64,000 nt of DNA from Agromyces allii (lineage in GTDB: Bacteria; Actinomycetota; Actinomycetes; Actinomycetales; Microbacteriaceae), in contig NZ_WBIN01000006.1 in the NCBI RefSeq assembly GCF_009749385.1, forward strand, positions 248,001-312,000, given 5' to 3'. The position numbers and the translations under genes were made by a program. The notes beneath the pieces are model-generated. The model was not told where the DNA came from. It saw nothing but the letters and a program-made list of their open reading frames with translations, and ran no database searches. Positions within the stretch are counted from its first letter, which is position 1; every line of letters starts with the position of its first letter. Shown in pieces: positions 1,811-18,360 of the stretch.

Positions 1811-4800
1811 GTGCAAGCCGTTACTCCGTCGTCGCGGGTGCAGGTCGCCGACGACCGCGCCGTGGAACCGTCGACTCCTCGACGGCGCGCCCTCCGGGTC
1901 GACCGTGCCGCAGCACGCGCTCGCCTGGCCGCGTTCCGGAGCGTGGTCGGCCGACTGGCCGCGACGTCGCGGAGCCTGCTCCGGGGCCGCGGGAACGGAC
2001 GACCTGGCGCGCGGCGGAGCACGACGCTGCTCCCGCCCGTCGTGGCAGCGGCCGCGGACGGCTTCGAGCTGCCGTACTTGCGCGACCCCGACCGCCCAGA
2101 GCGCCCCTCCATCGAAGAGCTGTGCCGAGAACTCGAGTCGTTCGACGTGATCTCGTTCGACCTGTTCGGAGTCGTGCTGCAGTCGACCGTCGAGACACCG
2201 GCCGACGTGTTCCGGGTCGTCGGCGCCAAGCTGGGGCTCATGGGGTTCGCCGAGATCCGGAGTGCCGCCGAGGCGCAGGTACGCCGCAGCTCGGATCCCG
2301 ACCGGGTGCACGCCACGGCGTTGCTCGACGAGGTCTACGCCGAGCTGGCCGCGCGACACGGAGTCGCCCCGGCCGTCCGCGCGGTCGAGGAGGCGACGGT
2401 GATCGAGCTCACGAGGCCGAATCCCGACATCCGCGCCGTCTACGATCACCTCGAGGCGATGGGGAAGCGGATCGTCTTCACCGGGAACGTGGCACTGGAC
2501 CCCGTGAACGTCGGGCGGCTGCTCGAACGCAACGGGTACGGCGATCGCCTGGACGCCGACCTCGTGAGCGGGCCGTCTGCGCGCGAACACGTCAGGTCGG
2601 CCCCTGAGACGCTGCTCGACCTCGTCGCGCCCGATCTGCGTGCGGCGCACGTCGGCGAGGTCTCGGTGTCGGAGGCCGCACGCCTGGAACCGATCGGAGT
2701 CCATGTCGTCGGGTACCGTACCGCACGGTCGTTCGTTCGCGAGGCGGACATGGACACGCTCGCCGGGAGCTTCTACGGCGCGGTCGTCGAGAACGTCATG
2801 GGAGCGGAAGCCTGGAACGGGAACGCCCACTACGCACACGGGTTCCGCGTCGGCGGGATCCTCGCGCTCGGGTACAGCGAGTTCCTCGAGCGGCTCGCGC
2901 GCGAGCGACGCGTCGACCGGATCCTCTTCTGCGGCCGCGGGTCGTACCTGATCTCGCAGGTGTACACGCGATTCAACGGCTCGGTTGAGAGCGCCTACAT
3001 CGGCACCTCGCGCACGGCCCTGTTGGGGATCACGCTCGGCCGGCACTTCGGCGACTACCTCAACCGGACCGTCTTCCGGTGGCTCGCCGACTCGGACGAG
3101 TCGCGGACGATCGGCCAGATCCTGTCCGACACCGGATTCGGCTACCTGCTCCCGCACCTCGAGGGTGCGGACATCGAGCGCTTCCTCTTCCCGTCGGGCG
3201 GCGCGCCGAGCGCGATCCGCCGCCGGCTCGAGAAGTTCCTGTGGGACCACCGGCGCGAGATCGAGGAGCACAACGCCCAGAGCCGGTCCGCGGCGAAGCG
3301 CATGCTCGAGGACGCCATCGGCGACGCGCAGCGAGTGCTCGTCGTGGACCTCGGCTGGGCGGGCACCACGGCGCAGGTCATCCGCGAGTTCGTCCACGAC
3401 GAGATCGGCGAGGATCGCGAGGTGATCGGCGCGCTGCTGTGCAGCAGCCGCTCGAGGGGCACGTCCGACGCGATCGCGACCGGTCTCCTGACCGCATACC
3501 TCCAATCGGCGACGCACAACATGGACCTCACGAGGCTCCTCGTGCCCAGCGGGCCGCATCCGGCGCAGCTCGACGACCTCCAGCGATACCCCATCGAGTA
3601 CCTGTTCGCCGAGCCGGAGGCCACCGTCACCGGCTACGGGTTCGACGCATCGGGGGAGCCGCGGGCCCTGACCGGCAACAACACGCCGCCGAACGTCGAC
3701 CAGATCCGCGAGATGCAGCGGGGCGTCCTCGATTTCGCGGCCGCATACACGTCGTCCTCGGCCGGGTTCGCCGTCTGCCGGCCGATCTCGCCGTACGTCG
3801 CATACAGCCCGATGAAGAACGCCATGGGGCGCGACCGGTATCGCGACGCCGTCTACCGCGACTTCGCCTACGACACGGGCCCGGCACTGTTCGCGCCCAC
3901 CGCGAGTCCTGGACGGTTCGGAGACCTGTCGGGCGAGGCGGTGGGGCGTGCCGTCGCAGCCGATCGCTCGCTCGAACCATGGCCCCCGCGCTCCCACAGG
4001 GATCGCATCCTGTTCGTCGCCGCCGATCTCGCCGACACCGACGCCGCCCGCGGTCTGCTGAGGCAGTGCGATCTCGCCGTCTCGCTCGGATACGAGCCGA
4101 TCGTCTGGACCGCCCGGACCGGGGCGCTGTCGCGCGACTTCCGCGCACAGGGGTATCCGGTGAGCGTCGTCGAGCCGGCCGAGCTGTCCGATCCGACGGT
4201 CGCCGAGCTGTCCGCTCGGGGCGTTCGGTTGGTCGTGTGCGACTCCGTGACGGTCGACGGGTTCGTCAGGCGCTTCGAGGGGCGACTTCCGCTCGTCTGG
4301 AACGTGCGCGCGACCGACGACCTGCCAGAGCTGCTGCGCTCGGATCCCGACCGGGCCGCCGCACTCCGGCGCAGCCCGAACCTCTGCTGCACCGACGACC
4401 ACGCGGCAGCCGTGATCTCCGAGTACGCCGACGGCCCGGTCGCCGTGGTCGGGGACTCGGCCGTCGATCGGGCGGCGGAGCCGCTGCACCCGGTCGACAG
4501 GCCGGCCGGCGTGTTCCGGTTCGCGCTCCTCGGAATCCTCGAACCGCGGTCGGGCATCGATGTCGCCGTCGCCGCCTTCCGCTCACTGCCGGAGACGTAC
4601 CGGCAGCGTGCCGAGCTGCACCTGGCGGGCACCTTCACGAACCGCGGCACGAGCTTCGCCTCGTTCGTCTTCGGCCGGATCCAGCACGAGCCGAACATCA
4701 GGTTCCACGATCTGGGTTCCGATGAACGCTCCCGGAGCGCGTTCCTCTCCGACGCGGACGTCGTGGTCGCCGCCGCCGCGGACGAGTCGTGCTCATCCGT

Positions 4801-6001
4801 CATCCGGGAGGCGGCGATGCTCGCGAGACCACTCGTCGCGACCGTCGAATCCGGAGCGGCAGGACTCGTTCGACCGCAAAACGGCACGCTCGTCGGCCTC
4901 GGCGACGTCGAGGCCCTCCGCGACGCGTTCATCGAACTGATCGATGCCGATCCCTCCGACCTGGTCGAGATGGGTGCCGCCTCGAGGGAGCGCTACGCGC
5001 ATCACGCGAGCCGCGAGGCGCACCGTCGAGCGCTGGGCGAGCTGTTCCGACAGCGGATCACCGCAGGGGCGACGGGCGAGACGGCACCTCGATGTGATGG
5101 GCACGAGCCGCGATCGCGGGCCGAGCAGCTCGTGAACGCAGGCGCGCCGGTCATCGTGTCGCTGACGTCGTTCCCGGCGCGGATCGCGTCGATCGGGGCG
5201 TGCATCGATTCGCTCCGCGCCCAGACGCTCGAGGCGGATGCCGTCATCCTCTGGCTCTCCGTCGCGCAGTTCCCCGGACGAGAGGCCGACCTGCCGCGAG
5301 ACCTGCTCGGCCGCCGTGACGACGTGTTCCGCATCGAGTGGGTCGACGAGGACCTCGGCCCGCACAAGAAGTACTTCTACGCGGCGCAGGCCCACCCCGA
5401 CGCGCTCATCGTGACGGTCGACGACGACGCCGTGTACGGCACACGGCTGCTTCGGAACCTCGTCGAGGGGCACCTGGAGCAGCCGCACTCGATCGTCTGC
5501 GACCGCGCGAACCTGATGCTCTTCCGGCCCGACGGAACGCCGCGCGAGTACGACGGGTGGGCCTATGGCGTCGACCATCTCCGCGGAACGCTGACCTACC
5601 AGCTCCTTCCGACCGGGGTCGGCGGTGTGCTCTATCCGCCCGGATCGCTTCCACCCGAGGCGTTCGTCTCGTCCGCGATCCTCGAGACCTCGCCGTACGC
5701 GGACGACCTCTGGCTCAAGGTCATGACGAGCGCGAACGGATTCCCGGTGTGGATGCCGCGCGAGCGCTCCGGCTACCAGCTCATCGAGGAGACCCAGTCC
5801 TCCGCCCTGTGGAAGTCGAACGCGATCCAGCGCGGGAACGACGAGGCGCTCGCCCGAGTGCTCGCGTACTTCGACCGGGCGATCGAGGACCGAGCGGCGC
5901 TCCTGCGACGGATCCTCGGAGTCGGACCCGACGGGGTGTTCGTCGAGCCTCGCGGATCCGAGGTGGTCCCGCTCGTCGGACTCACATCAGATAGGGCCTG
6001 A
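1811..6001 (+). CDS. Multidomain HAD-like / glycosyltransferase-like surface polysaccharide protein
   Basis: 1396 residues; GTG start at 1811, uncertain because only a weak GGAG lies close to it. Domain 1 (about 110-310) is HAD-like of the FDxFDT type: FDVISFDLFG has the nucleophile Asp117, and KRIVFTG supplies motif II. The usual acidic motif GDxxxSD is changed to GEVSVSE (282-288), so phosphatase activity is doubtful. Domain 2 (about 330-640) has RILFCGRGSYLI and VVDLGWAGT, typical companions of this HAD type in polysaccharide clusters. Domain 3 (about 720-1090) resembles a GT-B/GT4 glycosyltransferase (FALLGILEPRSGIDVAV). Domain 4 (about 1110-1390) begins VIVSLTSFPARI and carries VTVDDDAVYG, a GT-A-like metal-binding DDD. 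It therefore may make two linkages. The 3' end overlaps the opposite gene tail-to-tail by 20 bp. Confidence 0.75.
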   Translation: MQAVTPSSRVQVADDRAVEPSTPRRRALRVDRAAARARLAAFRSVVGRLAATSRSLLRGRGNGRPGARRSTTLLPPVVAAAADGFELPYLRDPDRPERPSIEELCRELESFDVISFDLFGVVLQSTVETPADVFRVVGAKLGLMGFAEIRSAAEAQVRRSSDPDRVHATALLDEVYAELAARHGVAPAVRAVEEATVIELTRPNPDIRAVYDHLEAMGKRIVFTGNVALDPVNVGRLLERNGYGDRLDADLVSGPSAREHVRSAPETLLDLVAPDLRAAHVGEVSVSEAARLEPIGVHVVGYRTARSFVREADMDTLAGSFYGAVVENVMGAEAWNGNAHYAHGFRVGGILALGYSEFLERLARERRVDRILFCGRGSYLISQVYTRFNGSVESAYIGTSRTALLGITLGRHFGDYLNRTVFRWLADSDESRTIGQILSDTGFGYLLPHLEGADIERFLFPSGGAPSAIRRRLEKFLWDHRREIEEHNAQSRSAAKRMLEDAIGDAQRVLVVDLGWAGTTAQVIREFVHDEIGEDREVIGALLCSSRSRGTSDAIATGLLTAYLQSATHNMDLTRLLVPSGPHPAQLDDLQRYPIEYLFAEPEATVTGYGFDASGEPRALTGNNTPPNVDQIREMQRGVLDFAAAYTSSSAGFAVCRPISPYVAYSPMKNAMGRDRYRDAVYRDFAYDTGPALFAPTASPGRFGDLSGEAVGRAVAADRSLEPWPPRSHRDRILFVAADLADTDAARGLLRQCDLAVSLGYEPIVWTARTGALSRDFRAQGYPVSVVEPAELSDPTVAELSARGVRLVVCDSVTVDGFVRRFEGRLPLVWNVRATDDLPELLRSDPDRAAALRRSPNLCCTDDHAAAVISEYADGPVAVVGDSAVDRAAEPLHPVDRPAGVFRFALLGILEPRSGIDVAVAAFRSLPETYRQRAELHLAGTFTNRGTSFASFVFGRIQHEPNIRFHDLGSDERSRSAFLSDADVVVAAAADESCSSVIREAAMLARPLVATVESGAAGLVRPQNGTLVGLGDVEALRDAFIELIDADPSDLVEMGAASRERYAHHASREAHRRALGELFRQRITAGATGETAPRCDGHEPRSRAEQLVNAGAPVIVSLTSFPARIASIGACIDSLRAQTLEADAVILWLSVAQFPGREADLPRDLLGRRDDVFRIEWVDEDLGPHKKYFYAAQAHPDALIVTVDDDAVYGTRLLRNLVEGHLEQPHSIVCDRANLMLFRPDGTPREYDGWAYGVDHLRGTLTYQLLPTGVGGVLYPPGSLPPEAFVSSAILETSPYADDLWLKVMTSANGFPVWMPRERSGYQLIEETQSSALWKSNAIQRGNDEALARVLAYFDRAIEDRAALLRRILGVGPDGVFVEPRGSEVVPLVGLTSDRA

Positions 6002-7106
6002 GCCGCGTACGGGAGACGAGCAGGCCCACAGCGAGGGGGAGCAGGTAGGCGAGAAGGAACGTCCACTTGGTCGGTTCCATTCCGGCGCGCTCGGTGAACC
6101 ACAGGACGAGCGTGTGGGTCAGGATGATCGGCAGCGCCACGGCCGCCCAGGCGGTGATCATCGGCGCGGACCACCGGGGAAGGACGCCGTCGGTCCACTC
6201 GGCGACGAGGATGAGCCCGCATGAGATGAGTGCGCCGGCGACCATGCTCACGAGCGGGTCTCCGAGGTCGGCGTACTTGAGGTCGAGCGGCGCGACGACA
6301 CCGAACCCGCCGGCGATCAGGAGCGGGACCGCGACGGCTGCACCCACGACGAGGGGCCGGCCGATGCTCGCCCGGTGCGTGCGAAGCAGGCGCCCGGCGC
6401 CGATGAAGGCGACGGCGGGAAGCGCGAGTCCGAGACCAGCGGGGATCGCGGTGATCGTCGACGGTGAGACGAGGCACCAGAGCACCCCGAGTCCTCCTGC
6501 AATCCAGACGAGTGGCGGCGAGATCCTCTGCAGCACGCGCATCAGCACGGCCGCGAAGAACAGCGTGGTGATGAACCAGAACGGGGAGTACGGGCGACCG
6601 GCGTACGAGCCCCCCGCTGCGGCCCGCAGCAGCCAGTCGGGGTCGATCGCGCCGTCCGCCGCCAGCAGTGCGGTCTGGAAGATCACGGTGACGATCAGGA
6701 GCCAGAACAGATAGGGCACCACGAGCGCGCGGGCGCGACGCCGAGTGTCAGCGCCGATCGGGCGATGGTCGTTCCAGAGATACCCGGTCAGCACGAAGAA
6801 GATGACGGTGTGCCAGGTGGAGAACCACGCGGGCGCCCACTCCTCCTGCCAGTTGTGGGTCAGGACGATGCTCGCGACCGTGACGATCCGGAGGAGGTCG
6901 ATGCCGATGCTGCGATCTCGTCGGGGCAGGTCGGATGCCGCGACCTCGATGCCGAGCCGGCTCGCGGCGGTGCCCGATGCGTTCGCCGTCGGACTGATCG
7001 CATCGGAGCGGGTCGCATCGGGTCGGCTCGCGAACGATCGGCCCGAGAACGATCGGCCCGTCATCGGGCGGTTCGGCGGGTCGAGCGGGGCAGTCGTATC
7101 GGTCAA
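5982..7106 (-). CDS. Acyltransferase 3 family membrane protein
   Basis: 374 residues with about ten hydrophobic segments. After a 60-residue polar N-terminus comes GIDLLRIVTVASIVLTHNW, the first membrane span with the conserved family His. WHTVIFFVLTGYLW and RARALVVPYLFW follow in the order expected for acyltransferase-3 proteins. The protein likely acylates an exported or membrane glycan. The start is uncertain: the frame opens with TTG at 7106, and an in-frame ATG at 7064 would remove 14 residues containing the start of the repetitive GRSFSGRSF stretch; neither has a clear ribosome-binding site. The last 20 bp overlap the 3' end of the opposite multidomain gene. It is the second acyltransferase-3 in the region, so at least two acyl decorations are possible. 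Confidence 0.85.
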   Translation of the reverse strand: MTDTTAPLDPPNRPMTGRSFSGRSFASRPDATRSDAISPTANASGTAASRLGIEVAASDLPRRDRSIGIDLLRIVTVASIVLTHNWQEEWAPAWFSTWHTVIFFVLTGYLWNDHRPIGADTRRRARALVVPYLFWLLIVTVIFQTALLAADGAIDPDWLLRAAAGGSYAGRPYSPFWFITTLFFAAVLMRVLQRISPPLVWIAGGLGVLWCLVSPSTITAIPAGLGLALPAVAFIGAGRLLRTHRASIGRPLVVGAAVAVPLLIAGGFGVVAPLDLKYADLGDPLVSMVAGALISCGLILVAEWTDGVLPRWSAPMITAWAAVALPIILTHTLVLWFTERAGMEPTKWTFLLAYLLPLAVGLLVSRTRLRPYLM

Positions 7107-7363
7107 CGTCCGTGTTCCGGTTCGGTTGGTGGCAACGCGACGATCCTGGGCCGTGGCCGATCATCGGCGACACTGTACCCCAGCGATCGCCCTGCGCCGG
7201 TACATGCGGCCGTGGAGCGGCACGGGTCGCGGGCGCGGCTTGGGGTATTGTTTTCAAGTTCGTCGCGCGAGATCCGCCGCGACGCGATCGACCGTTCGCC
7301 CGGCTCCCAGATTCTCTCGAAGATCCCTTCTGATCGTGCGATGAGTGAGAGGAAATCACCCGA
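7107..7363. other. Divergent intergenic region, 257 bp
   Basis: This gap separates the minus-strand acyltransferase from the plus-strand UbiA-HAD operon, so it must hold promoters for both. A locally AT-rich patch lies around 7241-7262 (TATTGTTTTCAAG). TATTGT at 7246-7251 could be a -10 element for the rightward operon, but I find no convincing -35. A GAGAGGA Shine-Dalgarno-like stretch precedes the ATG at 7364 by about 10 nt. I see no RNA gene or repeat. Confidence 0.4.
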
Positions 7364-8794
7364 ATGGATGCCGGGACCGCCGTACGACCGCAGAACATCG
7401 CCGTCGACCTCGACGGAACGCTCATCGCCACCGATCTCCTCTGGGAATCCGGACTTCGCTACCTGATGTCCTCGCCGGCCGCGCCGTTCCGCGCCGTCGG
7501 CATGCTCTCGCGCGGCAAGTCGGCGCTGAAGACCTCGATCGCCGCCGAGGTCGATCTCGATCCCGAACTCCTGCCCTACCGCGCCGACGTCGTCGCCTGG
7601 CTCCGATCGGCGAAGGACGACGGTGCGAGGATCGTCCTCGCGACCGCGGCGGCGCGTCCCTACGCAGAGGGCGTCGCGGAGCACCTCGGGCTCTTCGAGG
7701 CGGTCATCGCGACCGATCTCGGCGGCCCGAACATGCGTTCCGGGGCCAAGGCCGCGGCGATCGACGACCACTTCGACGGCGAGCCGTGGCTGTACGTCGG
7801 CGATTCCCACGCGGATCTCGCCGTGTGGCGCGGCGCTTCCGCCGCCGTCACGGCCGAGGCGCCGCCGCGCGTGCGCTCGGCCGTCGACCGCATGGACATC
7901 CCGGCGACCCACCTCGAGTCGCCGCAGACGAGCACGGCACGGGCGTGGGCGAAGCAGTTGCGGATCCACCAGTGGATCAAGAACATCCTCGTCCTGCTCC
8001 CGCTCGTCACGTCGCACCTCTGGACCGTGACGGCCATCGTCGACTCGCTCGTCGCGTTCCTCGCCTTCGGGTTCGCCGCGTCGTCCGTCTACGTCTGGAA
8101 CGACCTTCGCGACCTCGACACCGATCGTGCGCATCGCACGAAACGCCGGAGGCCGCTGGCCGCCGGACGACTCCCGATTCCGCAGGCCGTCGTGGTGGCC
8201 GTCGTGTTGGCGATCCTCAGCCTGGTGCTCAGCGCCATCGTGGGGTGGCTGTTCCTCGTCTGCATCCTCGTCTACGTCGTGGTGACGACCGTCTACACCG
8301 CGTACCTCAAACGCAAGCTGATCGCCGACGTGGTCACGCTGGCGGTGCTCTACACGTGGCGGATCGTCGCGGGCTGCGCGGCGGTCATGGTGGCGCCGTC
8401 GATCTGGCTGCTCGCCTTCTCGATCTTCCTCTTCTTCAGCCTGGCCGTCATGAAGCGCTACGCGGAGCTCGTGAACCACGAGTCGAACGCGAAGGGGCGA
8501 GGGTACGAGAACGCCGACGCTCCCGTGCTCCTGTCGACGGGCATCTCGGCCGGCCTGGTCGCGACGCTGGTGCTCGTGCTCTACCTGGACTCGCCGCAGG
8601 TCACCCGGCTCTACGAGAACCCGATCGTGATGTGGGCGCTGGTGCCGCTCGTGCTGTACTGGCTCACGCGCACCTGGTCGTTGGCCGGTCGGAAGAAGAT
8701 GGACGATGATCCCATCCTGTTCGCCGCCCGTGACCGTGTGAGCTTGATGGTCGTCGCCCTGGCGGCCGTCGTCGTGGTGATCGCGTCCCTCTGA
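7364..8794 (+). CDS. HAD phosphatase-UbiA prenyltransferase fusion (DPPR synthase-like)
   Basis: 476 residues. The N-terminal 190 residues are a HAD phosphatase with all motifs intact: AVDLDGTL (Asp15, Asp17), IVLATA, the Lys of RSGAKAAAI, and YVGDSHAD. The rest is a UbiA-type integral membrane transferase: NDLRDLDTDRAH starts at Asn246 and is followed by KRRRPLAAG, then YLKRKLIAD and about eight membrane spans. The NDxxDxxxDRxHxxKRxRPxAAG pattern is that of decaprenyl-phosphate 5-phosphoribosyltransferase (mycobacterial Rv3806c) rather than quinone-pathway enzymes. The inferred reaction is transfer of a phosphosugar (PRPP is the known donor of that family) to polyprenyl phosphate, with the HAD domain removing the remaining phosphate. 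It is first in a tight operon with a transporter, epimerase and GT-C-like protein. Confidence 0.85.
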   Translation: MDAGTAVRPQNIAVDLDGTLIATDLLWESGLRYLMSSPAAPFRAVGMLSRGKSALKTSIAAEVDLDPELLPYRADVVAWLRSAKDDGARIVLATAAARPYAEGVAEHLGLFEAVIATDLGGPNMRSGAKAAAIDDHFDGEPWLYVGDSHADLAVWRGASAAVTAEAPPRVRSAVDRMDIPATHLESPQTSTARAWAKQLRIHQWIKNILVLLPLVTSHLWTVTAIVDSLVAFLAFGFAASSVYVWNDLRDLDTDRAHRTKRRRPLAAGRLPIPQAVVVAVVLAILSLVLSAIVGWLFLVCILVYVVVTTVYTAYLKRKLIADVVTLAVLYTWRIVAGCAAVMVAPSIWLLAFSIFLFFSLAVMKRYAELVNHESNAKGRGYENADAPVLLSTGISAGLVATLVLVLYLDSPQVTRLYENPIVMWALVPLVLYWLTRTWSLAGRKKMDDDPILFAARDRVSLMVVALAAVVVVIASL

Positions 8795-8826
8795 GGGACG
8801 CATCCTGTGCAGAGAGAGGTGTGCCG

Positions 8827-9216
8827 ATGGCCCTGACCTTCGGAGTCTGGGTGATGTTGATCACGGGTGTCCTGCTGAACGCAGGGGCCCAGCTGCTGAT
8901 CAAGGCGGGAACGACCGCGCTCGGCGGGCAGCTCGTCTCGCCCGACGGCATCGTGCAGACGGTGTTCCGCGTGCTCTTCCAGCCGTTCATCCTCGGCGGA
9001 CTCGCCGCCTACGTCGTCAGTGTCGGCCTGTGGATCGTGGTGCTGTCGAAGGCTCCGGTCTCGGTGGCCTACCCGATGCTCTCGATCGGCTACATCGTGA
9101 ACGCCTTCCTGGCGTACTTCCTGTTCGGTGAGGCGCTCAGCGTCTGGAAGCTCGTCGGAATCGGCGTGATCGTGCTCGGCGTGTTCATCCTGGCCCGAGC
9201 CGGAGCGACCGCGTGA
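8827..9216 (+). CDS. Small four-helix EmrE/ArnE-F-like transporter (possible lipid-sugar flippase)
   Basis: 129 residues with four hydrophobic helices and almost no soluble part, the size and layout of the SMR/EamA-like superfamily. [11 protein letters not shown] in helix 1 and [19 protein letters not shown] in helix 3 match the ArnE/ArnF-type subunits that flip undecaprenyl-linked aminoarabinose, more than drug exporters, whose helix-1 Glu is not obvious here. I chose ATG 8827 because AGAGAGAGG at 8811-8819 is 7 nt away; GTG 8821 is in frame but too close to it. The 3' end overlaps the epimerase by 4 nt (GTGA), so translation is coupled. Placed between a lipid-sugar synthase and a GT-C-like protein, it is best read as the flippase of the lipid-linked sugar. 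That role is inferred. Confidence 0.75.
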
Positions 9217-10151
9217 GAGTGCTCGTGACCGGAGCGAGCGGGTTCGTCGGGCGCCGCATCTGCGCCCAGCTCGCCGCGAACGGCCACGACGTGATCGCGA
9301 CCGACCGCCACGGTCAGCGCCTCGCGGGCGATCTCGCCGACACCGCGTTCGCCTCGAGCCTGCCCGACGTCGATGCGGTCGTCCATGCGGCGGCCGTGCA
9401 GTACGTCACGTCGCCCCGCCCGCGGTTCGTGCGCAAGCGGTGGTTCGAGCGCAACAACGTGACGGCGACCCAGAACCTCGCGGACCGGTATTCGGGGCGC
9501 GTGCGGTACTTCCTGCTCATCGGCACGTCGATGATGTACTCCCAGCGGCATCGTGCCACATACGCGACGACCGATCCGCTCACCGGTGAAGGGGTCTACT
9601 CCCGGTCGAAGCTCGAAGCCTACGAGGTGGTCGAGCGCATGGACAACCCGTTCGGCGTGCTCGTGCCGACCATCATCGGCGGCCCCGGACGCGCCGGCCT
9701 CTTCGGCATGTTCGTGCTCACCGTGCAGCGCTGGGGACTCGCAGCCATGCCCGGCGCCTGCACGGCGAAGACGCAGATGGTCCACGTCGACGATGTCGCC
9801 GCACTCGTGCGAGTCATGGTCGACACCGAGGCGACCGGCTTCCGCAACGCCGGCGGACCCGATCCCCTCTCGATCAGCCAGTGGATCGACATCGTCCAGA
9901 GCGTCGTCGGCGTGGAACGCGTCCGACGCGTCCGGATCCCGTACTGGGCGATCCGCTTCGGCGCGTGGCTGACCGCCTACCGATTCCTGGCCAGGGAGCA
10001 GACGCTCATGCTCGGTCAGGATCACGTGCTCGACATCTCGCGGTCCGAGGAGCTCGGCTGGCATCCGCAGTACTCGAACGAGCGGATCCTGCGCGATATC
10101 GCCACCGGTTGGCTCGAGGAGCACGCCCCGAAGGCCGAGAGCGCTTCGTGA
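9213..10151 (+). CDS. NAD(P)-dependent sugar epimerase/dehydratase (extended SDR)
   Basis: 312 residues starting at GTG 9213, inside the stop of the transporter gene. TGASGFVG at the N-terminus is the dinucleotide-binding loop of the extended SDR family; [21 protein letters not shown] and YSRSK (Tyr129, Lys133) supply the active-site Ser/Tyr/Lys region. The C-terminal half binds the substrate, usually a nucleotide sugar. In this operon the substrate could instead be the polyprenyl-linked sugar made by the UbiA-HAD protein, in analogy with the DprE1/DprE2 two-step epimerization of decaprenylphosphoryl ribose. No FAD-dependent DprE1-like partner is present in the window, however. The next gene overlaps its stop by 4 nt. 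Confidence 0.85.
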
Positions 10152-11680
10152 CCATGTCATGGCGTCGCAACGCGGTCTGGGTGGTCCTCGGCCTCGCGCT
10201 GCTCGCGGCGGCATCGCTCGCTGCGACCAGGGTTCCCGTGTACGGCGATGACTTCCGCCTCGCCCAGAAATCGTTCGACATGTTCGACGGGTCGCTCGGT
10301 GGCGTGCTCAAGGATTCGTGGAACACCGGTTGGCAGCCGAACCGGTTCAACCCGGTCGGCCGGTTCTTCGCCTTCACCTACCATTTCCTCGCGTTCGACG
10401 TCTCCGCGCAGTTCGGCGTGAGCATCCACTGGTTCTACCGCCTCGGCGCGTTCGTGCTCCTCGTGCTCCTCGTGCTCGCAGCGTCCGCGTTCATGCTCAT
10501 CGGGGTGCGGTTCATGAGCGTCGAGAACCGCTGGCTGACGTTCGGGCCGGTCTTCGCGGGCATCGCGGCCGGGCTCGCGATCACGATGCAGTTGCATCCC
10601 TGGTCTCACGACCCGATGCTCACCATCAGCGAGATCGGGCTCACCTCCTGGGCGCTGTCGTTCGCATTCCTCGCGCTGGCGCTGCGGGTCGCGTCCCGCC
10701 CGCCGTCGCTCGCGGGGTACCTGGGCGTCGGCGCGGTGGCCGTCGTCGGCACCATGTTCTACGAGACGTTCGTCGCCGCGGTGGCGGCCGCCGGGCTGGT
10801 CTGGCTGTGGGTGCTGGTGCGCGACATCCGTGTTGGAGCGAAGCCGTGGCATGCCCTGACGTTGGCCGCCGTCGGCGCGCTGGCGCCGCTGCTCGTCTTC
10901 GTGCTCGGCCGGGTCTACGTCGCCTCGCTCGACCTCCCGCCCTATCCAGGCACCGAGCTCGAGTTCGGTCCTGCAGGACTCGTGCCGTTCTCGTTCCTCG
11001 CGCTGGGCATGGTTCCCGCCTCCGCGTGGCCCGAGGCCGCACGGTACGTCTCGGGCGGCGGCGATGCCGGGATCTTCCCGGCAGGGGCGATCACGCTCAG
11101 TTCCGCCTCGATCGCGACGACGGCGGTCATCGTGCTCGTGCTCGGCATCGGTGCCGCGCTCGCGCGTGCCGACATCCGACGGAGGCTCGTCTTCGCGAGG
11201 CGCGGTTGGGTGGTCGGCGGAGTGCTCCTGCTCGTCGTGGGCCTGATGCTCGCCATGCACTCCTTCACCGAGAAGTACATCGCCGAGATCACCTCCCCGG
11301 GCGACATCTACCTGTCGTACACCGGTCTCGCCGTGGTCGTCGTGATGATCGTGTTCGCCGCGCTGCTCGCCGCGAGGCGCCGCCTGCTGCTCGTGATCGT
11401 CCTCCTCCCGATCGCCGGTGCCTTCGTCACGGCCCAGCAGGCGGTGAACTGGTCCGTCGCGAACGCCGCCGGCGCCGACAACTCCACGAACCGCGCCATC
11501 ACCGCGATGGCCGTCCGATGGGAACCCGACGAGGCGGTGCGGTGCGACGCGCTGCGCGCCTGGGACGAGGGTCACAACTGGCGCCCGTACTACCGGGAGG
11601 CCGTCATCCCGAGTCTCAACGCGAACTACGAGCGCCTCTTCGGCGAGCCGTTCTGCGCGGGCTACGCCATCACCGAGTAG
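10148..11680 (+). CDS. Polytopic membrane protein, candidate GT-C glycosyltransferase
   Basis: About 510 residues; GTG 10148 overlaps the epimerase stop (GTGA), and ATG 10154 is an alternative two codons in. There are about eleven membrane spans. After the first span the sequence [15 protein letters not shown] places two acidic residues in the first extracytoplasmic loop, where GT-C enzymes keep their catalytic acid. A second region, [17 protein letters not shown], lies before span 2. The C-terminal 70 residues are soluble. GT-C enzymes use polyprenyl-phosphate sugars on the outer membrane face, which suits this last gene of a lipid-sugar operon. I cannot assign a named family by eye; an O-antigen-polymerase-like or GtrII-like protein is the main alternative. 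Confidence 0.7.
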
Positions 11681-11741
11681 CGCGCTTCCGCTCGCGTGCG
11701 GGCGAGTGCCGGTTCGCCGGCGCGCGGACGGGCGAGCATGA

Positions 11742-11777
11742 CGGATGCCGCGGGCGAACGCTCGCCCGCGGCATCCG
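11742..11777. terminator. Bidirectional terminator between convergent genes
   Basis: A perfect 16-bp stem (CGGATGCCGCGGGCGA with its complement at 11762-11777) and a 4-nt loop lie between the ends of the GT-C-like gene and the acyl-CoA dehydrogenase gene. It lacks a strong T tract, as is common for actinobacterial terminators, and can serve both strands. Confidence 0.8.
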
Positions 11778-11805
11778 ATCGCCGTCGTGGTTCAGCTGAC
11801 GGGCG

Positions 11806-12984
11806 TCACACGAACGCGGCGCTGCCCGTGATCTTGCGGCCGACGATGAGCGTGTTCATCTCGCGCGTGCCCTCGTAGGAGTAGAGCGCCTCGGCGTCGG
11901 CGAAGAAGCGCGCGACGTCGTACTCGAGCGTGATGCCGTTGCCGCCGCAGGCCTCGCGGGCCCAGGCGACCGTCTCGCGCATGCGCGCCGTCGTGAACGC
12001 CTTGGCGAGGGCGGAGTGCTCGTCGCGCTGCTCGCCGCGGTCGAGCATCTCGGAGACGCGCACGACCATGCCGAGCGAGGCCGTGATGTTGCCGAGGCTC
12101 TTCACGAGCAGGTCCTGGATGAGCTGGTGCGAGCCGATCGTCTTGCCGAACTGCACGCGCTCGCCGGCGTACTTGACGGCCGCCTCGTAGGCGCCCATCG
12201 CCGTGCCGACGGCGGCCCAGGCGACCTCGGCGCGGGTGAGTCGCAGCACCTGCGCGGTGTCGCGGAACGAGTTCGCGTTCGCCAGGCGGTTGGACTCGGG
12301 CACGACGACGTTCTCGAGCGTGATGTCGGCGTTCTGCACCGCGCGCAGGCTGATCTTGCCCTGGATCTTCGTGGCCGTGTAGCCGGGCGTCGAGGTGGGC
12401 ACGATGAAACCCTTGACCTGGTTGTCGTCGACGTCCTTCGCCCAGATGATCGTGATGTCGCTGAACGTCGCGTTGCCGATCCAGCGCTTCGAGCCGTTCA
12501 GCACCCACGTGTCGCCGTCGCGCTTCGCGGTGGTTCGCAGGCCCTGCGCCGAGTCGGAGCCCGAGAGCGGCTCGGTCAGGCCGAACGCGCCGATGATCTC
12601 GCCGCTCGCGAGCTTGGGGATCCACTCGTCGCGCTGCTCCTTGGAGCCGCACACGCTGATGCTGCCCGTGGCGAGGCCGTTCTGCACGCCCACGAACGTC
12701 GCGACCGACGCATCGACGCGAGCGAGCTCCATGGCCACGAACCCGCGGAAGACGGCCGAGTTCTCGAACGGCTTCGTCTCGTCCCAGCCGAACGAGAGCA
12801 CGCCGTGCTCGGCGAGCGGCTTCACGATCTGCATGGGGAACTCGGCCCGCTCCCAGTAGTCGCCGACGATCGGCTTGACCTCGGCCTCGAGCCACGCGCG
12901 AAGTTCGGCGATGGCCTGCTTCTCGCGGTCGGTGAGGAGGGATTCGTACGAGTAGAAGTCGCTCGCGAGCGGCTCGAAGGTCAT
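11806..12984 (-). CDS. Acyl-CoA dehydrogenase, glutaryl-CoA dehydrogenase-like
   Basis: 392 residues, the normal family length, from ATG 12984 with AGGAG 5 nt upstream. It is a flavoprotein that oxidises acyl-CoA to enoyl-CoA and passes electrons to ETF. FGLTEPLSGSDSA and KRWIGNATFSDI are the FAD/acyl-CoA motifs, and EACGGNGI with YEGTREMNTLIVGR close the C-terminal domain. The Glu of YEGT is in the catalytic-base position of the glutaryl/isobutyryl group, and GDYWERAEFP near the N-terminus also fits glutaryl-CoA dehydrogenase-like members. No lysine or tryptophan degradation gene and no ETF gene lies nearby, so the substrate stays open. It is a single metabolic gene between two polysaccharide blocks. 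Confidence 0.9.
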   Translation of the reverse strand: MTFEPLASDFYSYESLLTDREKQAIAELRAWLEAEVKPIVGDYWERAEFPMQIVKPLAEHGVLSFGWDETKPFENSAVFRGFVAMELARVDASVATFVGVQNGLATGSISVCGSKEQRDEWIPKLASGEIIGAFGLTEPLSGSDSAQGLRTTAKRDGDTWVLNGSKRWIGNATFSDITIIWAKDVDDNQVKGFIVPTSTPGYTATKIQGKISLRAVQNADITLENVVVPESNRLANANSFRDTAQVLRLTRAEVAWAAVGTAMGAYEAAVKYAGERVQFGKTIGSHQLIQDLLVKSLGNITASLGMVVRVSEMLDRGEQRDEHSALAKAFTTARMRETVAWAREACGGNGITLEYDVARFFADAEALYSYEGTREMNTLIVGRKITGSAAFV

Positions 12985-13088
12985 GACTGCTCCTATGCGT
13001 CGTCGGATGCCACGAGCCTACGTCCGTGATCCGATCGTCATCCGGCCGTTGGTAGCTTTGAGGGAATTCTCGGAAGGGGCCACACGGG

Positions 13089-14354
13089 ATGTTTGTGTCC
13101 ATCGGCAATACCCCGCGCGACTACGCGTGGGGCTCGACGACGGCGATCGCCGGATTCCGCGGGGTGCCCGCTTCGGGCGCCCCCGAGGCCGAGCTCTGGC
13201 TCGGCGCGCACGCCGGATCGCCGGCCCGCATCATCGGCGGCGGCGGCGATGCGGCGGCCGGGTACACCGACCTCGCAGCGTGGATCGCGGCCGATCCGGC
13301 CGCAGCGCTGGGCCCGGAGCTCGCGGCGCGGGGCGCCCGGCTCCCGTTCCTGCTGAAGGTGCTCGCCGCGGCCGAGCCGCTCTCGCTGCAGGCGCATCCG
13401 ACGCCCGAGCAGGCCCGCGCCGGCTTCGCACGCGAGGAGGCCGAGGGCATCGAGCTCACGGCCTACGACCGCAATTACAAGGACGAGTTCCACAAGCCCG
13501 AACTGATCGTCGCCGTGAGCGACACCTTCGACGCGCTGTCGGGCTTCCGCCCGCTCGACGAGGTGGCCGGCGTGCTGGAGGCGCTCCGCGAGGCCGACGC
13601 GGCCGGGGCCGCGGGCGAGCCGCAGCCGGGTGCGCTCGACCTCCTCGCCGAGCACCTCGCCTCGGAGCAGCCGCTCCGCGACACCGTCGAGTGGCTGCTC
13701 CGCGACGGACGCGGGGGCGACACCGGCGAGGCCTCATGGGTGACCGAACGCGTGACGGCGCTCTCGGCATCCGCCATCGCCCTCGACTCGGCGTACGCGC
13801 CGTCGTTCGCGACCGTCGGCGTGCTCGCCGAGGCGTACCCCGGCGACCCGGGCATCGTCATCTCGCTGCTGCTGAACCGCGTGCGACTCGTGCGCGGCGA
13901 GTCGCTCTACCTGGCGGCTGGCAACATCCACGCCTACCTCGAAGGCCTCGGCATCGAGCTCATGGCCGCGAGCGACAACGTGCTGCGCGGTGGCCTCACG
14001 CCCAAGCACATCGACGTCGACGAACTGCTCGACGTGCTCGACTTCACGCCGATCGCGCCGCCGAGGCTCGCGCCGGAGCGCCTGGGCGAGGGCGTCGAGG
14101 TCTTCCGGCCCGATGTGCCCGACTTCGTGCTCTACCGGGTCGAGGCGAGCAGTACGACGACGGATGCCGCGAGCTCGCCGATCGTGCTCGACGGCCCGGC
14201 GATCGTGGTCGCCGAGGGCGGCGACCTCGTGGTCGCGGGCGCCTTGGGCTCGGCATCCGTCGCGCGCGGCGCATCGCTCTACGTCACGCCCGACGAGCTG
14301 GGCCTCACCGTGACGGGCGACGGCATCGCCTGGATCGCGACGACCGGGCGCTGA
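13089..14354 (+). CDS. manA: Mannose-6-phosphate isomerase, class I
   Basis: 421 residues, cupin-fold zinc enzyme interconverting fructose-6-phosphate and mannose-6-phosphate. NTPRDYAWGS near the N-terminus, FLLKVLAAAEPLSLQAHP (zinc-ligand Gln and His), the Glu of HKPELIVAV, and AGNIHAYLEG (further zinc His) are the class I active-site set. ASDNVLRGGLTPKHID is the family signature near the C-terminal cupin. A GGAAGGGG ribosome-binding site lies about 10 nt before ATG 13089. Its product feeds the phosphomannomutase encoded at 28055, giving mannose-1-phosphate for GDP-mannose. In mycobacteria manA lies close to whiB2/manB; here the polysaccharide genes and galE separate them. Confidence 0.95.
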   Translation: MFVSIGNTPRDYAWGSTTAIAGFRGVPASGAPEAELWLGAHAGSPARIIGGGGDAAAGYTDLAAWIAADPAAALGPELAARGARLPFLLKVLAAAEPLSLQAHPTPEQARAGFAREEAEGIELTAYDRNYKDEFHKPELIVAVSDTFDALSGFRPLDEVAGVLEALREADAAGAAGEPQPGALDLLAEHLASEQPLRDTVEWLLRDGRGGDTGEASWVTERVTALSASAIALDSAYAPSFATVGVLAEAYPGDPGIVISLLLNRVRLVRGESLYLAAGNIHAYLEGLGIELMAASDNVLRGGLTPKHIDVDELLDVLDFTPIAPPRLAPERLGEGVEVFRPDVPDFVLYRVEASSTTTDAASSPIVLDGPAIVVAEGGDLVVAGALGSASVARGASLYVTPDELGLTVTGDGIAWIATTGR

Positions 14355-14427: not shown

Positions 14428-15528
14428 GTGCGCACGATTCACAAGGTCCTGGTCTTCCCCGCGTGGGACGACAATCCGTATCTGAACCTGCTGAGTCTCG
14501 CCCCGAGGACAGGCGGCTTCGAGTTCTCGGGCTCGACCACGAACGACTCCCTGCGGAGCGCCGCAGCGAACTTGGGCGCCCGCGACGTGCTCCACCTGCA
14601 CTGGACTTCGCCGATCCTGCAGCGCTGCGAGACCGATGCCGACGCCTGGGCGGCGCTCGCCCAGTTCACGATCCTCCTGCGCGACGCGCAGGAACGCGGG
14701 GTCCGCGTGATCTGGACCGTGCACAACCAGCTGCCCCACGAACTCGCCCACCGCGATGCCGAGATCGCGCTCTACCGATTGCTCGCGGAATCCGTCGACG
14801 TGATCCACGTCATGGCCCCCGCGACGGCGCGACTCGTCGCGGACATCTGCGAGCTCCCGGCCGACCGGGTCCGGATGCTGCCCCACCCGAGCTACCTCGG
14901 CGTGTACGGGGTGCCTCCGTCGAAGGCCGAGGCGCGGCGTATGCTCGGCGTCGGAGCCGATGAGCCGACGGTGCTCTTCCTGGGCCAGATGCGACCGTAC
15001 AAGGGCCTCTCCACGCTGCTCACGGCCGTTCGGACCCTTGCCGAACGGGGTGAACCGACCCCCACGCTCCTGCTCGCCGGCTCGGCGAAGCCCGAGGCGC
15101 AGGAGGAGATCGAACGGGCTCTGCCCGCCGGAGCCCGCGTGATCACCCGATTCGGGTTCGTACCGGATGGCGACGTCGGAACGTGGTTCGCCGCGGCCGA
15201 TGTCGCGGTGTTCCCGTACTCCGCGATCTTGAACTCGGGCAGCCTCCACCTGTCCGCGGCGTTCGAGGTTCCGGCGATCCTGCCGCGCGAGGAGCACCTC
15301 GTCGAGCAGTTCGGGGCGGAGCCCTGGGTGCGGTTCTTCGACACCGAGGCGCCAGTCGAATCCATGGCCCGTCTGCTGTCGGATGTGGTCCGCGACCCGG
15401 TGGGTCCGAATCTCACACCGGAGTTCGACCGGTTCAACGGATCCATCTCGCCGTGGCTCGTCTCAGCGCAGTACAGTCGCCTCCTCGAGGAGCTGGTGGG
15501 GGAGCCACCGGAGCACAGCAGCTCCTGA
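14428..15528 (+). CDS. Glycosyltransferase, GT-B fold (GT4-like)
   Basis: 366 residues from GTG 14428. TACGAT at 14414-14419 ends 8 nt before the start, which suggests a leaderless transcript; there is no Shine-Dalgarno sequence. The N-terminal half contains VIWTVHNQLPHE and VIHVMAPATARLV. The C-terminal half contains VLFLGQMRPYKGLSTLL, the strand-loop that opens the nucleotide-sugar domain of GT4 enzymes, and AAADVAVFPYSAILNSGSLH, the donor-binding helix region. The layout resembles GumK-type and mannosyl/glucuronosyl transferases of exopolysaccharide synthesis. The manA gene just upstream makes a mannosyl donor plausible, but the sugar cannot be read from the sequence. Confidence 0.85.
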   Translation: MRTIHKVLVFPAWDDNPYLNLLSLAPRTGGFEFSGSTTNDSLRSAAANLGARDVLHLHWTSPILQRCETDADAWAALAQFTILLRDAQERGVRVIWTVHNQLPHELAHRDAEIALYRLLAESVDVIHVMAPATARLVADICELPADRVRMLPHPSYLGVYGVPPSKAEARRMLGVGADEPTVLFLGQMRPYKGLSTLLTAVRTLAERGEPTPTLLLAGSAKPEAQEEIERALPAGARVITRFGFVPDGDVGTWFAAADVAVFPYSAILNSGSLHLSAAFEVPAILPREEHLVEQFGAEPWVRFFDTEAPVESMARLLSDVVRDPVGPNLTPEFDRFNGSISPWLVSAQYSRLLEELVGEPPEHSSS

Positions 15529-15632
15529 GCAGGAGGTCGTCGACATCGACCGGGGGGTGCCCCGAAGGCGCCTGGGCGATCGTCGATGACGTTCTGGTCT
15601 CGGGTGTCGGCAGTCCGAGGCGCAGATGGCGG

Positions 15633-18356
15633 TCAGACGGCGTCCGACCGGGCATCGCTCGGCCGGCGGATCCTTCGGCTCGTGGCGCGCCCGACGCGCG
15701 CTGCGGCGCGTTTCAGCCAGTTCGACCGTCGTGCGAGACGGATGCCGCGAGGGTCGAACGTCATGAGGAACCGGTCGAACCGGTCGTACTCGGGAGTCAC
15801 CGCGTCGAACCGGGTCGTTAGGACCTCGCCGGTCGCGACATCGCGGAGTGCGGGGCGCAGGAAGACGTGCTTCGGCAGAGCCGAGTGGGCGATCGTGCCG
15901 GTCCACTGCATGTTCTCGTCGTCGCCCTGCGAGCTCGCCGACATCGGGTGCGCTGCGCCGGTCGCCTCGTCGTACAGCACGGGCTCGAGTGCGTACGCCG
16001 AGATCGACCCGGCGAACCGAATGGTCAGGGCGGAACCGGTCTCCACGCTGAGGAGCGCCGCGTTCACCTCGCGGGCTCGCGCGAGCCTGCGCTCGAGAAG
16101 CTCTGGTTCGAGGGGTCGGGATGCGAGCTCGGGGATCGCGGTCAGGGGAGCGGGGTGGCGCCGTTCGAGCGTTCGGGTCAGGTCGAGCACCGCCGCCCCA
16201 TCGACGCCCGATTCGAGGACGGCGCGCGACAGGTCGTGGAGGAGCGCATCTGCGAAGTACTCCTGCTCGAACGGGTCGGGTTCGCCATCGGGTCGCTCGA
16301 CAGCGCGACGCCAGTGGTGCAGTCGCACCGCGAGGTCGGTCTCGGCGCCGCTGAAGAGCGTCGCGATCGTCGTCGCGAGGCCGTACCACCCGCCGTCGAT
16401 GAGCTGCAGGAGCATTCGCTTGTTCGGTTCGCGCACGGCGTCGGGGCCGAGGTCGAGCACCTCGACGATCTCGCCGACGAGGCCGGCGATCTCGTCGTCC
16501 TGCGCTCGGGTGCGGTCCTCAGACCGGAAGTACTTCGCGAGGTGCACCCATCCGTCGCGGGCGAGGAAGAGCATCGCGTAGCGATCGCGAAGCTCGTCGG
16601 AGGCGTGATCGCGGATCAACCGAGCGCACGCCAGTTCCTGGGTCAGGTAGCTCTTGACGGCCTCGGCCGAAGCGGCCTTCGCCGTCATCGACGACGCGCC
16701 GGGGCGCTCGCGGTAGAGATAGACGACGTTCTCGACGACGTCGAGGCGTTCTGCGGCGAGATACGCGGTCACCATCGGCACGATGTCGTTGGAGCGCGGG
16801 ACATCCGGGAAGCGGATGTCGGACGCCTCCCAGAACGACCGCCGGAACGCCTTGTTCCAGCAGGGGCGCCCGTTGATCAGGGTCGGCTCGTCGTGAATCG
16901 TGATCCCACGGCTGGGCGCGGCGTATGCGGGCCAGTTCGCGGTGGGGCGCCACGTGCTCGTGGGCGAGAACTTCACGTAGTCGCCGAACGCGATGTCGGA
17001 CCCCGAGCCCTCGAGGCTGGCGACGAGCGAGCGGTACGCCCCTTCGGGGACGAGATCGTCGCCGTCGCAGAACACGAGATACCGGCCGCGCGCGTGGTCT
17101 GCGCCGATGTTGCGCGCCGTTCCGCCGCCGCGCGTCACCGAATCGATGACGCGGAGTCGCGAGTCGGTCGCCGCGATCTCCTCGAGCGCCGCACGGGTGC
17201 CGTCGGTCGAATGGTCGTCGACGACGATGACCTCCATGCCGTCGAGGTCCTGCGCGAGGACCGACGAGAGCGTCTCGCCGATCCAGGGCCTCGTGTTGTG
17301 CGCCGGGATCACGACGGAGAGCAGCGGGGCCGTCGTCGCGTCGCCGATCGGCCGCGCGAGTCCCGCGTAATCGAGCTCCTCGCGGGTCAGTCCGGAGACG
17401 GGGGCGTCCTGCGCGGAGAGGGCGTCCAGCCGCTCGAGCGCCTCCAGCGTCTCGCTGCCGGGATCCGTGCCCGCCTCGTTTCGGAGGGCTGCGCGCTGCA
17501 TGGCGGCGTCGGCGGCCAGTTCGAGGTACGCGGTCGGAGCGTCGGCCGGGAACCCGGGCGACGCGTCCCCGGTCCACACGTCGAAGGGGAACGCAGCGAG
17601 GAGCGCGTGAGGATCCCACACCGCGGCGGGTACCGGCCCGAGCGCGATCGCCTCGTCGATGGAGCTCGCGAAACGGACGTCGGGTCGACCGGTGCCGGCG
17701 TAGTGGTCGAGGTACTTGAACGGGTTCTCCGCCACCGCGGTGATCGGTCTCGACGGGATCCCGAGTGCGTCGGCGATGATGAGCGCGTGCAGTGAACTCG
17801 CCGCGACGAACTCGCTCGCCGCGATCTCCTCGACCATCGTCCAGGGGTCGGTGAGCGGGCTCAGCGTGCCCTCGTGAGTGAATCGATCGAGCTCGTGCAG
17901 GTTCGGCACGACGAGCACGGACCGGCGCTTCGACGGCGAAGCCGCGGCGAACTCCGGGAAGAGGTGGGGGATGAGCAGGGCGGGATCGCCGTAGACCGCG
18001 GGGGCGGCGATGCCGCGCGCCGCGAGCACGGCCCGCGTGTACGGCCCGCGGACGGCGCGGACGTCGAGCGACGGGGTGAACTGCTGGTCGTCGATCTTGC
18101 CGTTGACACCGGTGCCCCAGACGACGTCGCCTGGCCGGCTCAGGTGCAACACCGATCCCACGCTGAGGACCCGTCGAGCGCGGCCCGTGTCACGCCGGCC
18201 GACGCGCTCCGCGAGGATGCGCTGCATGACGAGCGGTCCGAGCAGATCGCCGAAGTTCATCGGGTTCGCGGTTCCGGATGCGGAGGGTTCCGGGGCCCAT
18301 CGCACGCATCGGACTCCGTCAACGATCACTTCGAACTCTTGCGCCACTCTGACCAT
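15633..18356 (-). CDS. Polysaccharide pyruvyltransferase-like / GT2 glycosyltransferase fusion
   Basis: 907 residues from ATG 18356; the frame stays open further upstream, but MVRVAQEFEVIVDGVRCV is the first stretch that looks like protein. Residues 1-300 resemble the polysaccharide pyruvyltransferase (CsaB/ExoV) family: ANPMNFGDLLGPLVM, VWGTGVNGK and SEFVAASSLHALIIADALG. Residues about 370-640 are a GT2 domain: LSVVIPAHNTRPWIG, VIVVDDHSTDGTR, ARNIGADHARG and FCDGDDLV (the metal-binding DxD-type site). The C-terminal 250 residues are helical with no recognised domain. A fused pyruvyl-donor and sugar-transfer enzyme would add a sugar and a ketal-linked pyruvate to the same glycan. No signal peptide is visible; cytoplasmic action is expected. 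Confidence 0.8.
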   Translation of the reverse strand: MVRVAQEFEVIVDGVRCVRWAPEPSASGTANPMNFGDLLGPLVMQRILAERVGRRDTGRARRVLSVGSVLHLSRPGDVVWGTGVNGKIDDQQFTPSLDVRAVRGPYTRAVLAARGIAAPAVYGDPALLIPHLFPEFAAASPSKRRSVLVVPNLHELDRFTHEGTLSPLTDPWTMVEEIAASEFVAASSLHALIIADALGIPSRPITAVAENPFKYLDHYAGTGRPDVRFASSIDEAIALGPVPAAVWDPHALLAAFPFDVWTGDASPGFPADAPTAYLELAADAAMQRAALRNEAGTDPGSETLEALERLDALSAQDAPVSGLTREELDYAGLARPIGDATTAPLLSVVIPAHNTRPWIGETLSSVLAQDLDGMEVIVVDDHSTDGTRAALEEIAATDSRLRVIDSVTRGGGTARNIGADHARGRYLVFCDGDDLVPEGAYRSLVASLEGSGSDIAFGDYVKFSPTSTWRPTANWPAYAAPSRGITIHDEPTLINGRPCWNKAFRRSFWEASDIRFPDVPRSNDIVPMVTAYLAAERLDVVENVVYLYRERPGASSMTAKAASAEAVKSYLTQELACARLIRDHASDELRDRYAMLFLARDGWVHLAKYFRSEDRTRAQDDEIAGLVGEIVEVLDLGPDAVREPNKRMLLQLIDGGWYGLATTIATLFSGAETDLAVRLHHWRRAVERPDGEPDPFEQEYFADALLHDLSRAVLESGVDGAAVLDLTRTLERRHPAPLTAIPELASRPLEPELLERRLARAREVNAALLSVETGSALTIRFAGSISAYALEPVLYDEATGAAHPMSASSQGDDENMQWTGTIAHSALPKHVFLRPALRDVATGEVLTTRFDAVTPEYDRFDRFLMTFDPRGIRLARRSNWLKRAAARVGRATSRRIRRPSDARSDAV

Positions 18357-18360
18357 CTTA

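Follow-up and report, generated by a model that had tools for sequence, protein, structure and literature searches.

The closest described counterpart of the genes analysed here is a lipid-linked pentofuranose pathway established in Citrobacter youngae (Kelly et al. 2024, PMC11127046; the statements below follow parts of that report). There, ORF15 is a HAD-UbiA fusion, and membranes containing it convert phosphoribosyl pyrophosphate (PRPP) and farnesyl phosphate to farnesyl-phosphate-ribofuranose. The D18A variant gives the 5-phosphate product plus a little dephosphorylated product, while R366A and E369A retain activity, so that R366 and E369 are not critical. ORF14 is a four-helix protein and the likely flippase (it is called a MATE protein yet compared with EmrE and ArnE). 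ORF12 is the transferase, with a predicted GT-C fold (family GT136), and accepts ribofuranose or xylofuranose donors; its binding module alone occupies residues 503-652. In serotype O2, the short-chain dehydrogenase/reductase (SDR) ORF13 converts ribofuranose to xylofuranose, and an O2 epimerase mutant makes ribofuranose instead of xylofuranose. For arabinofuranose systems the same report names homologues of DprE1 and DprE2, and it mentions Gram-positive candidates, with a Bacillus example. Here we analyse a four-gene operon in a 64,000-nucleotide stretch of the Agromyces allii genome (the window). By analogy with C. youngae O1/O2, we read it as a three-component system for pentofuranose addition that includes an epimerase, and give this reading a probability of about 0.75.

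The open reading frames of the window place all four genes on the forward strand: a UbiA-HAD fusion at 7364-8794 (476 residues), a four-helix membrane protein of SMR/EamA type at 8827-9216 (129 residues, ATG start, alternative GTG at 8821), an extended SDR of the Pfam Epimerase family at 9213-10151 (312 residues, GTG start) and a last gene encoding a polytopic membrane protein at 10148-11680 (510 residues, GTG start, alternative ATG at 10154). The first two genes are separated by 32 bp (8795-8826), the start of the SDR gene overlaps the stop of the four-helix gene by 4 nt, and the SDR gene and the last gene overlap by another 4 nt. These coordinates agree with the gap and the two overlaps listed in an earlier reading of the same DNA, which we call the original prediction.

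The resemblance to the C. youngae O2 set (ORF12-ORF15) covers a HAD and UbiA fusion, a four-helix protein like EmrE or ArnE, an SDR with TGxxGxxG and YxxxK, and a polytopic protein. Both sets come without DprE1 and DprE2, for C. youngae as far as the parts of the report used here extend, and in both the locus also holds ABC transporter genes for the polymer. They differ in phylum, and the last protein of the window, which has no detectable relative, is shorter than ORF12. The same kind of four-part kit is already published (PMC11127046, in the parts used), and the operon represents a known pathway type in a new host lineage; it reveals no new kind of pathway. A limited literature search, mostly of titles and abstracts, found no paper on such a system in the window's family (genus, family and phylum here always mean the groupings to which its genome belongs). 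The mycobacterial arabinan route (Rv3806c, Rv3807c, DprE1/DprE2, Rv3789, Emb/Aft) is expected to share the first chemistry, between PRPP and polyprenyl phosphate. It differs in having a separate phosphatase of another family and a two-enzyme epimerase (PMC11127046, in the parts used), and in its polymer, which is of arabinose.

We infer the substrate of each step, the identity of the sugar, the acceptor, and which proteins act as flippase and transferase, as follows. The UbiA half would transfer phosphoribose from PRPP to polyprenyl phosphate at the inner face of the membrane, and the fused HAD half would remove the 5-phosphate to leave polyprenyl-phosphate-ribofuranose. The SDR would then act on the sugar while it is attached to the lipid, most likely inverting C3 to give xylofuranose. 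The SMR-like protein would flip the polyprenyl-phosphate-sugar, and the last membrane protein would transfer the pentose to a polymer of the cell surface, which the ABC transporter of the same locus probably exports. If this is true, a recently described lipid-linked pentofuranose route is placed in an actinobacterial surface-polymer locus, with its parts swapped around one fused enzyme.

The fusion is a predicted polyprenyl-phosphate ribofuranose synthase, on family scores and modelling. It matches the NCBIfam family NF006088 over residues 7-475 (558.2 bits, cut-off 351, E = 1.4e-167). The runners-up are three decaprenyl-phosphate phosphoribosyltransferase families (153.8, 133.3 and 108.5 bits, each under its own cut-off); an unspecified prenyltransferase family scores 57.6 bits, and haem and quinone families score at most 38. 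Pfam recognises both halves above cut-off, HAD with 44.6 bits and UbiA with 96.7. The N-terminal half (residues ~10-185, SerB-like fold) carries the phosphatase motifs DLDGT at 15-19, K129, D147 and D151, which bears out the claim of the original prediction that a HAD phosphatase complete with its motifs is fused to UbiA. The C-terminal half (~190-475), the predicted membrane phosphoribosyltransferase, has the motif NDLRDLDTDRAHRTKRRRPLAAG at 246-268. D15, N246, D247, D250, D254, R365 and E368 are invariant in a 40-row alignment of homologues in which ORF15 is not included. By motif and spacing, and with the ORF15 residues taken from the parts of PMC11127046 used here, D15, the HAD nucleophile, corresponds to D18 of ORF15, and the other six to N247, D248, D251, D255, R366 and E369, with a constant offset of one for these six phosphoribosyltransferase residues.

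Structural comparisons group the UbiA half in the same way. A profile built from nine fusions and compared with the Protein Data Bank found 8j8j, Rv3806c of Mycobacterium tuberculosis, as the best match (E = 1.6e-44), with UbiA structures of archaeal, chlorophyll and quinone type ranking below it. An AlphaFold2 model of the fusion from 40 sequences was confident (predicted local distance difference test, pLDDT, 93.9; predicted template-modelling score, pTM, 0.89). Searched with Foldseek, it retrieved 8j8j and 8j8k on top (E = 1.8e-9 and 3.9e-8; TM-score normalised by target 0.84 and 0.83), followed among UbiA folds by archaeal UbiA (best E = 2.3e-5), and its HAD half fell with SerB-like and other HAD phosphatases. 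Rv3806c is the nearest solved structure to the fusion, an outcome that favours the original prediction in the structural check set beforehand. By sequence and model, the UbiA half is grouped with decaprenyl-phosphate phosphoribosyltransferase, apart from the quinone and haem enzymes, as had been proposed earlier.

The next two genes encode a putative flippase and a putative epimerase. The four-helix protein is a predicted polyprenyl-phosphate-sugar flippase of SMR/EamA type. Its best curated matches are ArnF (54.5 bits, cut-off 99) and ArnE (39.1 bits, cut-off 92), the proteins that flip lipid-linked 4-amino-arabinose, both under cut-off. ArnE and ArnF work as a pair, whereas the operon has a single protein. 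The Pfam scores lie slightly under the thresholds (EamA 25.8, cut-off 28.2; Multi_Drug_Res 21.6, cut-off 23.7), and relatives of the protein adjoin some fusions in other phyla. The SDR exceeds the cut-off of Pfam Epimerase (81.7 bits), a match that, like that of the fusion to NF006088, is far beyond chance. It carries TGASGFVG (6-13) and YSRSK (129-133), both motifs of extended SDRs, and reaches none of the NCBIfam cut-offs in the 25 top-scoring of 94 families. It is a predicted epimerase of a lipid-linked pentofuranose. It shows the TGxxGxxG and YxxxK pattern of the xylofuranose variant, a weak indication since many unrelated SDRs show it too. A plasmid search with the window SDR matched four records, one of them adjoining a fusion. 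The family labels of the original prediction fared unevenly: the SDR label holds, the SMR/EamA label is near but under the cut-offs, and the GT-C label has no Pfam match behind it.

Several observations weigh against this reading. None of 62 named loci with full flanks, and none of 18 with short flanks, has the combination seen in the operon (SMR and SDR without DprE1), and 11 of the 62 fusion loci had none of the partners sought. These named loci are the 80 most similar to the window protein out of at least 435; the 18 short-flanked ones were excluded from the 62. Their partner labels (DprE1, DprE2, GtrA, SMR, SDR) mean phmmer similarity to single proteins of the locus L047 or of the window, at score cut-offs that we set (L and G numbers are our labels for loci and genomes). 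In the Enterobacterales, the order of Erwinia typographi, we sought a C. youngae-like kit in 295 genomes and found 11 fusions, one lying on a contig only 8 kb long; none had an SDR above 39 bits, and SMR plus SDR without DprE1 occurred at 0 of the 11. The SDR of the window was compared with C. youngae ORF13, as described in the parts of the report used, by motifs and role in the gene set, not by sequence. A tree does not join it to the fusion-side SDRs of Rhizobiales and leaves its place unsettled, contradicting an early impression that the two shared motifs. The last protein has no Pfam family (a single meaningless match, E = 0.15), and its single-sequence model is poor (pLDDT 47.9, pTM 0.27). 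At E = 0.001 it occurs in 1 of 60 genus genomes and 1 of 199 family genomes, its own each time, and a search of 396 phylum genomes likewise returned its own only. The check set beforehand on whether the four genes stay together in relatives thus went against conservation of the operon, which is not kept in the family.

The nature of the sugar depends on the SDR. Its product is most likely xylofuranose, formed by C3 epimerisation, on the analogy with ORF13, a call that we regard as evenly poised. Alternatively, the sugar may stay ribofuranose, the SDR acting on another substrate, for instance a nucleotide sugar belonging to the surrounding polysaccharide locus. Epimerase-free combinations of a fusion, a flippase-like protein and a polytopic protein do exist, in L046 of the same genus and in L188-L190 of Erwinia's order (the small protein of L188 is Pfam EamA), and the SDR reaches none of the curated equivalog cut-offs shown, with an open tree placement. 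Yet its gene sits between the flippase-like and last genes with 4-nt overlaps on each side, much as the C. youngae O2 epimerase gene lies among the kit genes in the parts of the report used, and we consider the ribofuranose alternative doubtful. If our reading is right, the compact four-gene set is suited to asking what a single SDR does to polyprenyl-phosphate-ribofuranose.

The last protein is a putative GT-C-type pentofuranosyltransferase. The transferase role is predicted from the operon position and the topology, and GT-C-like refers here to topology only. Hydropathy gives nine hydrophobic segments, with Asp34-Asp35 after the first, and the low-confidence model places short helices at this early Asp-Asp region. 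The protein could instead be another polytopic part, such as a polymerase, ligase or exporter subunit, and its lack of a family, homologue or usable model would suit this option. It was entered in the searches as 10145-11677 (511 residues, one codon ahead of the GTG start). In the genus, the remaining matches were short pieces with E between 0.026 and 0.51; plasmids and viral contigs gave no relative, three scans of viral contigs yielded nothing useful, and phage records gave one weak match to an unannotated record. Among 177 open frames for polytopic proteins located near fusions or UbiA-only genes, the best E was 0.37 with the window protein as query, and the reverse direction gave 3.2 bits. 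However, Pfam likewise has no family for the membrane partners of the fusions in L046 and L188. With the operon position, the early Asp-Asp and the topology, this makes a role other than glycosyl transfer unlikely. Elsewhere, the membrane partner in L189 matches DUF6056 and PMT weakly, and two partners in Rhodovulum carry a GT39 or mannosyltransferase annotation. If the last protein of the window is a transferase, this orphan is a candidate first member of a new family of such enzymes.

The original prediction had described the operon as a minimal counterpart of the arabinan precursor pathway, in which case it would make polyprenyl-phosphate-D-arabinofuranose, the SDR performing the 2-epimerisation unaided or together with an unlinked oxidase. 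Loci of the arabinofuranose type do predominate in our sample of fusions: 43 of the 62 fully flanked ones have a DprE1-like gene within 5 kb of the fusion. The partners are DprE1 and DprE2, alone or with GtrA (35 loci), DprE1 with SDR and SMR (5), SMR (4), GtrA (4), DprE1 and DprE2 with SDR (3) or none (11). Two fusions of the window's own family (L047 and L048) come with DprE1-like and DprE2-like genes, and the five loci that have an SDR with DprE1 but without DprE2 would also suit this option. For the L047 proteins, DprE1 (348.2 bits, cut-off 500) and DprE2 (130 bits, cut-off 250) are the nearest named NCBIfam functions, both under cut-off. Neither DprE1 nor DprE2 was found in the operon of the window with Pfam and NCBIfam. 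Among the nine FAD_binding_4 loci of its genome there is no ortholog of DprE1: the best shares 31% identity over 90 residues with the DprE1-like proteins of the family, among which identities are 59-85%; a genome-wide search was made for DprE1, not for DprE2. Because of these absences arabinofuranose is less likely, and the only SDR-only kit tested, in the parts of PMC11127046 used here, yields xylofuranose. The arabinan comparison is weak as to the sugar: we consider arabinofuranose quite improbable, and xylofuranose (or ribofuranose) likelier. That the UbiA half is an ordinary aromatic prenyltransferase among unrelated neighbours, as its superfamily and the weak quinone and haem matches might suggest, is hardly credible and was rejected, given the lead of the decaprenyl-phosphate phosphoribosyltransferase families in the scores and of 8j8j by profile and model, and the four other UbiA genes in the genome.

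A distinct combination occurs in Rhizobiales (L085, L107, L115, L120, L146 and L170), where the fusion is accompanied by a DprE1-like oxidase, an SMR protein and an extended SDR, and no DprE2-like gene was found. These are 5 of the 62 named loci plus a Neorhizobium plasmid, and their six SDRs form one clade (100/98). In these loci the SDR may stand in for DprE2; otherwise two centres would be inverted and the product would be lyxofuranose.

The xylofuranose-type kit that we favour for the window appears to be one of several built around related fusions. The fusion exceeds its cut-off in 4 of 199 family genomes, in 1 of 386 phylum genomes (its own) and in the 11 genomes of Erwinia's order; BLAST at 1e-60 gave 4 of 388 family genomes, a sample overlapping the 199. 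In the genus it occurs in 3 of 60 genomes including its own, a fourth match being UbiA only. Elsewhere it is common: 101 plasmid records match, 81 of them over most of the query, and the named loci come from several phyla. In a quick tree the four family fusions form one group (SH-aLRT 99), with the window and L046 together at 97, and their partners are an SMR protein, an SDR and an orphan in the window, GtrA and a convergent membrane protein in L046, and DprE1-like and DprE2-like proteins in L047 and L048. In L046 (9259-12884) the fusion overlaps GtrA by 4 nt, the convergent gene encodes an orphan membrane protein of 561 residues, and there is no epimerase; this locus reads as a ribofuranose-type kit, and it adjoins what we take to be a dnaK-like gene. 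The fusions of L047, L048, a Ruegeria plasmid and a Rhizobium etli plasmid are 44, 37, 43 and 40% identical to that of the window, and DprE1-like and DprE2-like genes (plus GtrA in the plasmids) replace its SMR and SDR. Gene calls in some related loci were made by a simple script.

Because related family fusions carry other partners (GtrA or the DprE1/DprE2-like pair), the kit looks modular, and as far as four cases show, partners are exchanged around a kept fusion core. Conservation of the four genes within the family is ruled out by the genus and family searches and by the congeners, none of whose 12 homologous 20-kb stretches contains any of them. The scheme of the original prediction, in which the sugar is built, epimerised, flipped and transferred, survives in that the parts fit, but not as a conserved four-gene unit. 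Since partners vary and the fusion stays, as in a modular serotype-like locus, this lowers the case for a conserved pathway, not for the operon working as such a pathway.

Two variations concern other enzymes of the family. In the fusion of L048 (9275-10678) the GDS motif of the HAD half is GTS, with Thr in place of the Asp equivalent to D147 of the window, so that this phosphatase half may be altered. Twelve other family genomes (of 199; L049-L060) have a UbiA-only phosphoribosyltransferase-like gene, which lies near DprE1-like and DprE2-like genes in five (L054, L056, L057, L058 and L060).

The operon lies at the right end of an insert. We compared its region by blastn with G596, the nearest by manA identity of 12 congeners examined (of 60). 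The flanks are 90.5% and 92.8% identical, and enclose 18,148 bp in the genome of the window against 54 bp in G596. Of this stretch of ~18.1 kb, the right-hand part occupies 1-11739 and the left 6.4 kb precede the window. It spans L163:13590 to window position 11740, from a Wzy_C gene to a dehydrogenase/manA pair, and ends ~60 bp past the last operon gene. Besides the operon it holds methyltransferases, a UDP-glucose/GDP-mannose dehydrogenase, acyltransferases, a protein of 1396 residues (1811-6001) with a GT4 domain at ~900-1080, and a cytidylyltransferase-SDR fusion (L163:13604-14983) that scores under cut-off with IspD (163.9 bits, cut-off 181.3) and D-ribitol-5-phosphate cytidylyltransferase (158.1 bits, cut-off 166). 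This cytidylyltransferase-SDR fusion may be a CDP-ribitol synthase, in which case a ribitol-phosphate polymer would be indicated. Just outside the insert lie genes for an ABC-2 permease and for a TagH-like ATPase (179.9 bits, cut-off 320), and the locus also has two Wzy_C proteins and several glycosyltransferases. Because of this gene content, with its ABC transporter and polysaccharide genes, an exported wall glycopolymer is a likely acceptor. Taken further, the window may encode an actinobacterial ABC-exported wall glycopolymer with a xylofuranose (or even an undescribed lyxofuranose) side chain. A transferase founding a GT-C family of its own would add it outside the cell, using a donor that one fused enzyme and one SDR produce, the family's fusion lineage having been re-equipped in a manner like serotype switching. 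We put this forward tentatively, as somewhat less than an even chance.

The flank of the insert is conserved and the insert itself varies. The names manA, acyl-CoA dehydrogenase, dnaK, galE and AraC used for genes here are our assumption from the sequence. The flank at 11806-14354 consists of an acyl-CoA dehydrogenase-like gene on the reverse strand and manA on the forward strand. A manA relative is present in all 12 congeners, and the dehydrogenase-like gene lies directly upstream in 11 (it was not found in L215). The Wzy_C gene adjoins the dehydrogenase gene in G596, and lies within 200 bp of it in 7 of the 12 (L212, L213, L214, L216, L217, L219 and L223). Genes from the left part of the insert also occur in some congeners: relatives of the cytidylyltransferase-SDR fusion, of one methyltransferase and of the UDP-glucose/GDP-mannose dehydrogenase are at the same place in L218, and single ones of these are near it in L215, L220, L221 and L222. 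G596 does encode a UbiA-HAD fusion, of another lineage and ~37 kb from its manA. To the right, glycosyltransferases at 14428-19703 separate manA from the next conserved gene, and those two adjoin in G596. A scan for promoters of sigma-70 type found none in 6900-11900. The window also encodes MtrA (386.2 bits, cut-off 300) and MtrB (609.1 bits, cut-off 450) by NCBIfam, and a relative of LpqB, which we take to be actinobacterial proteins. Finally, the manA match of the congener G592 (L210 and L211) is split into two parts that lie in different frames, as if frame-shifted.

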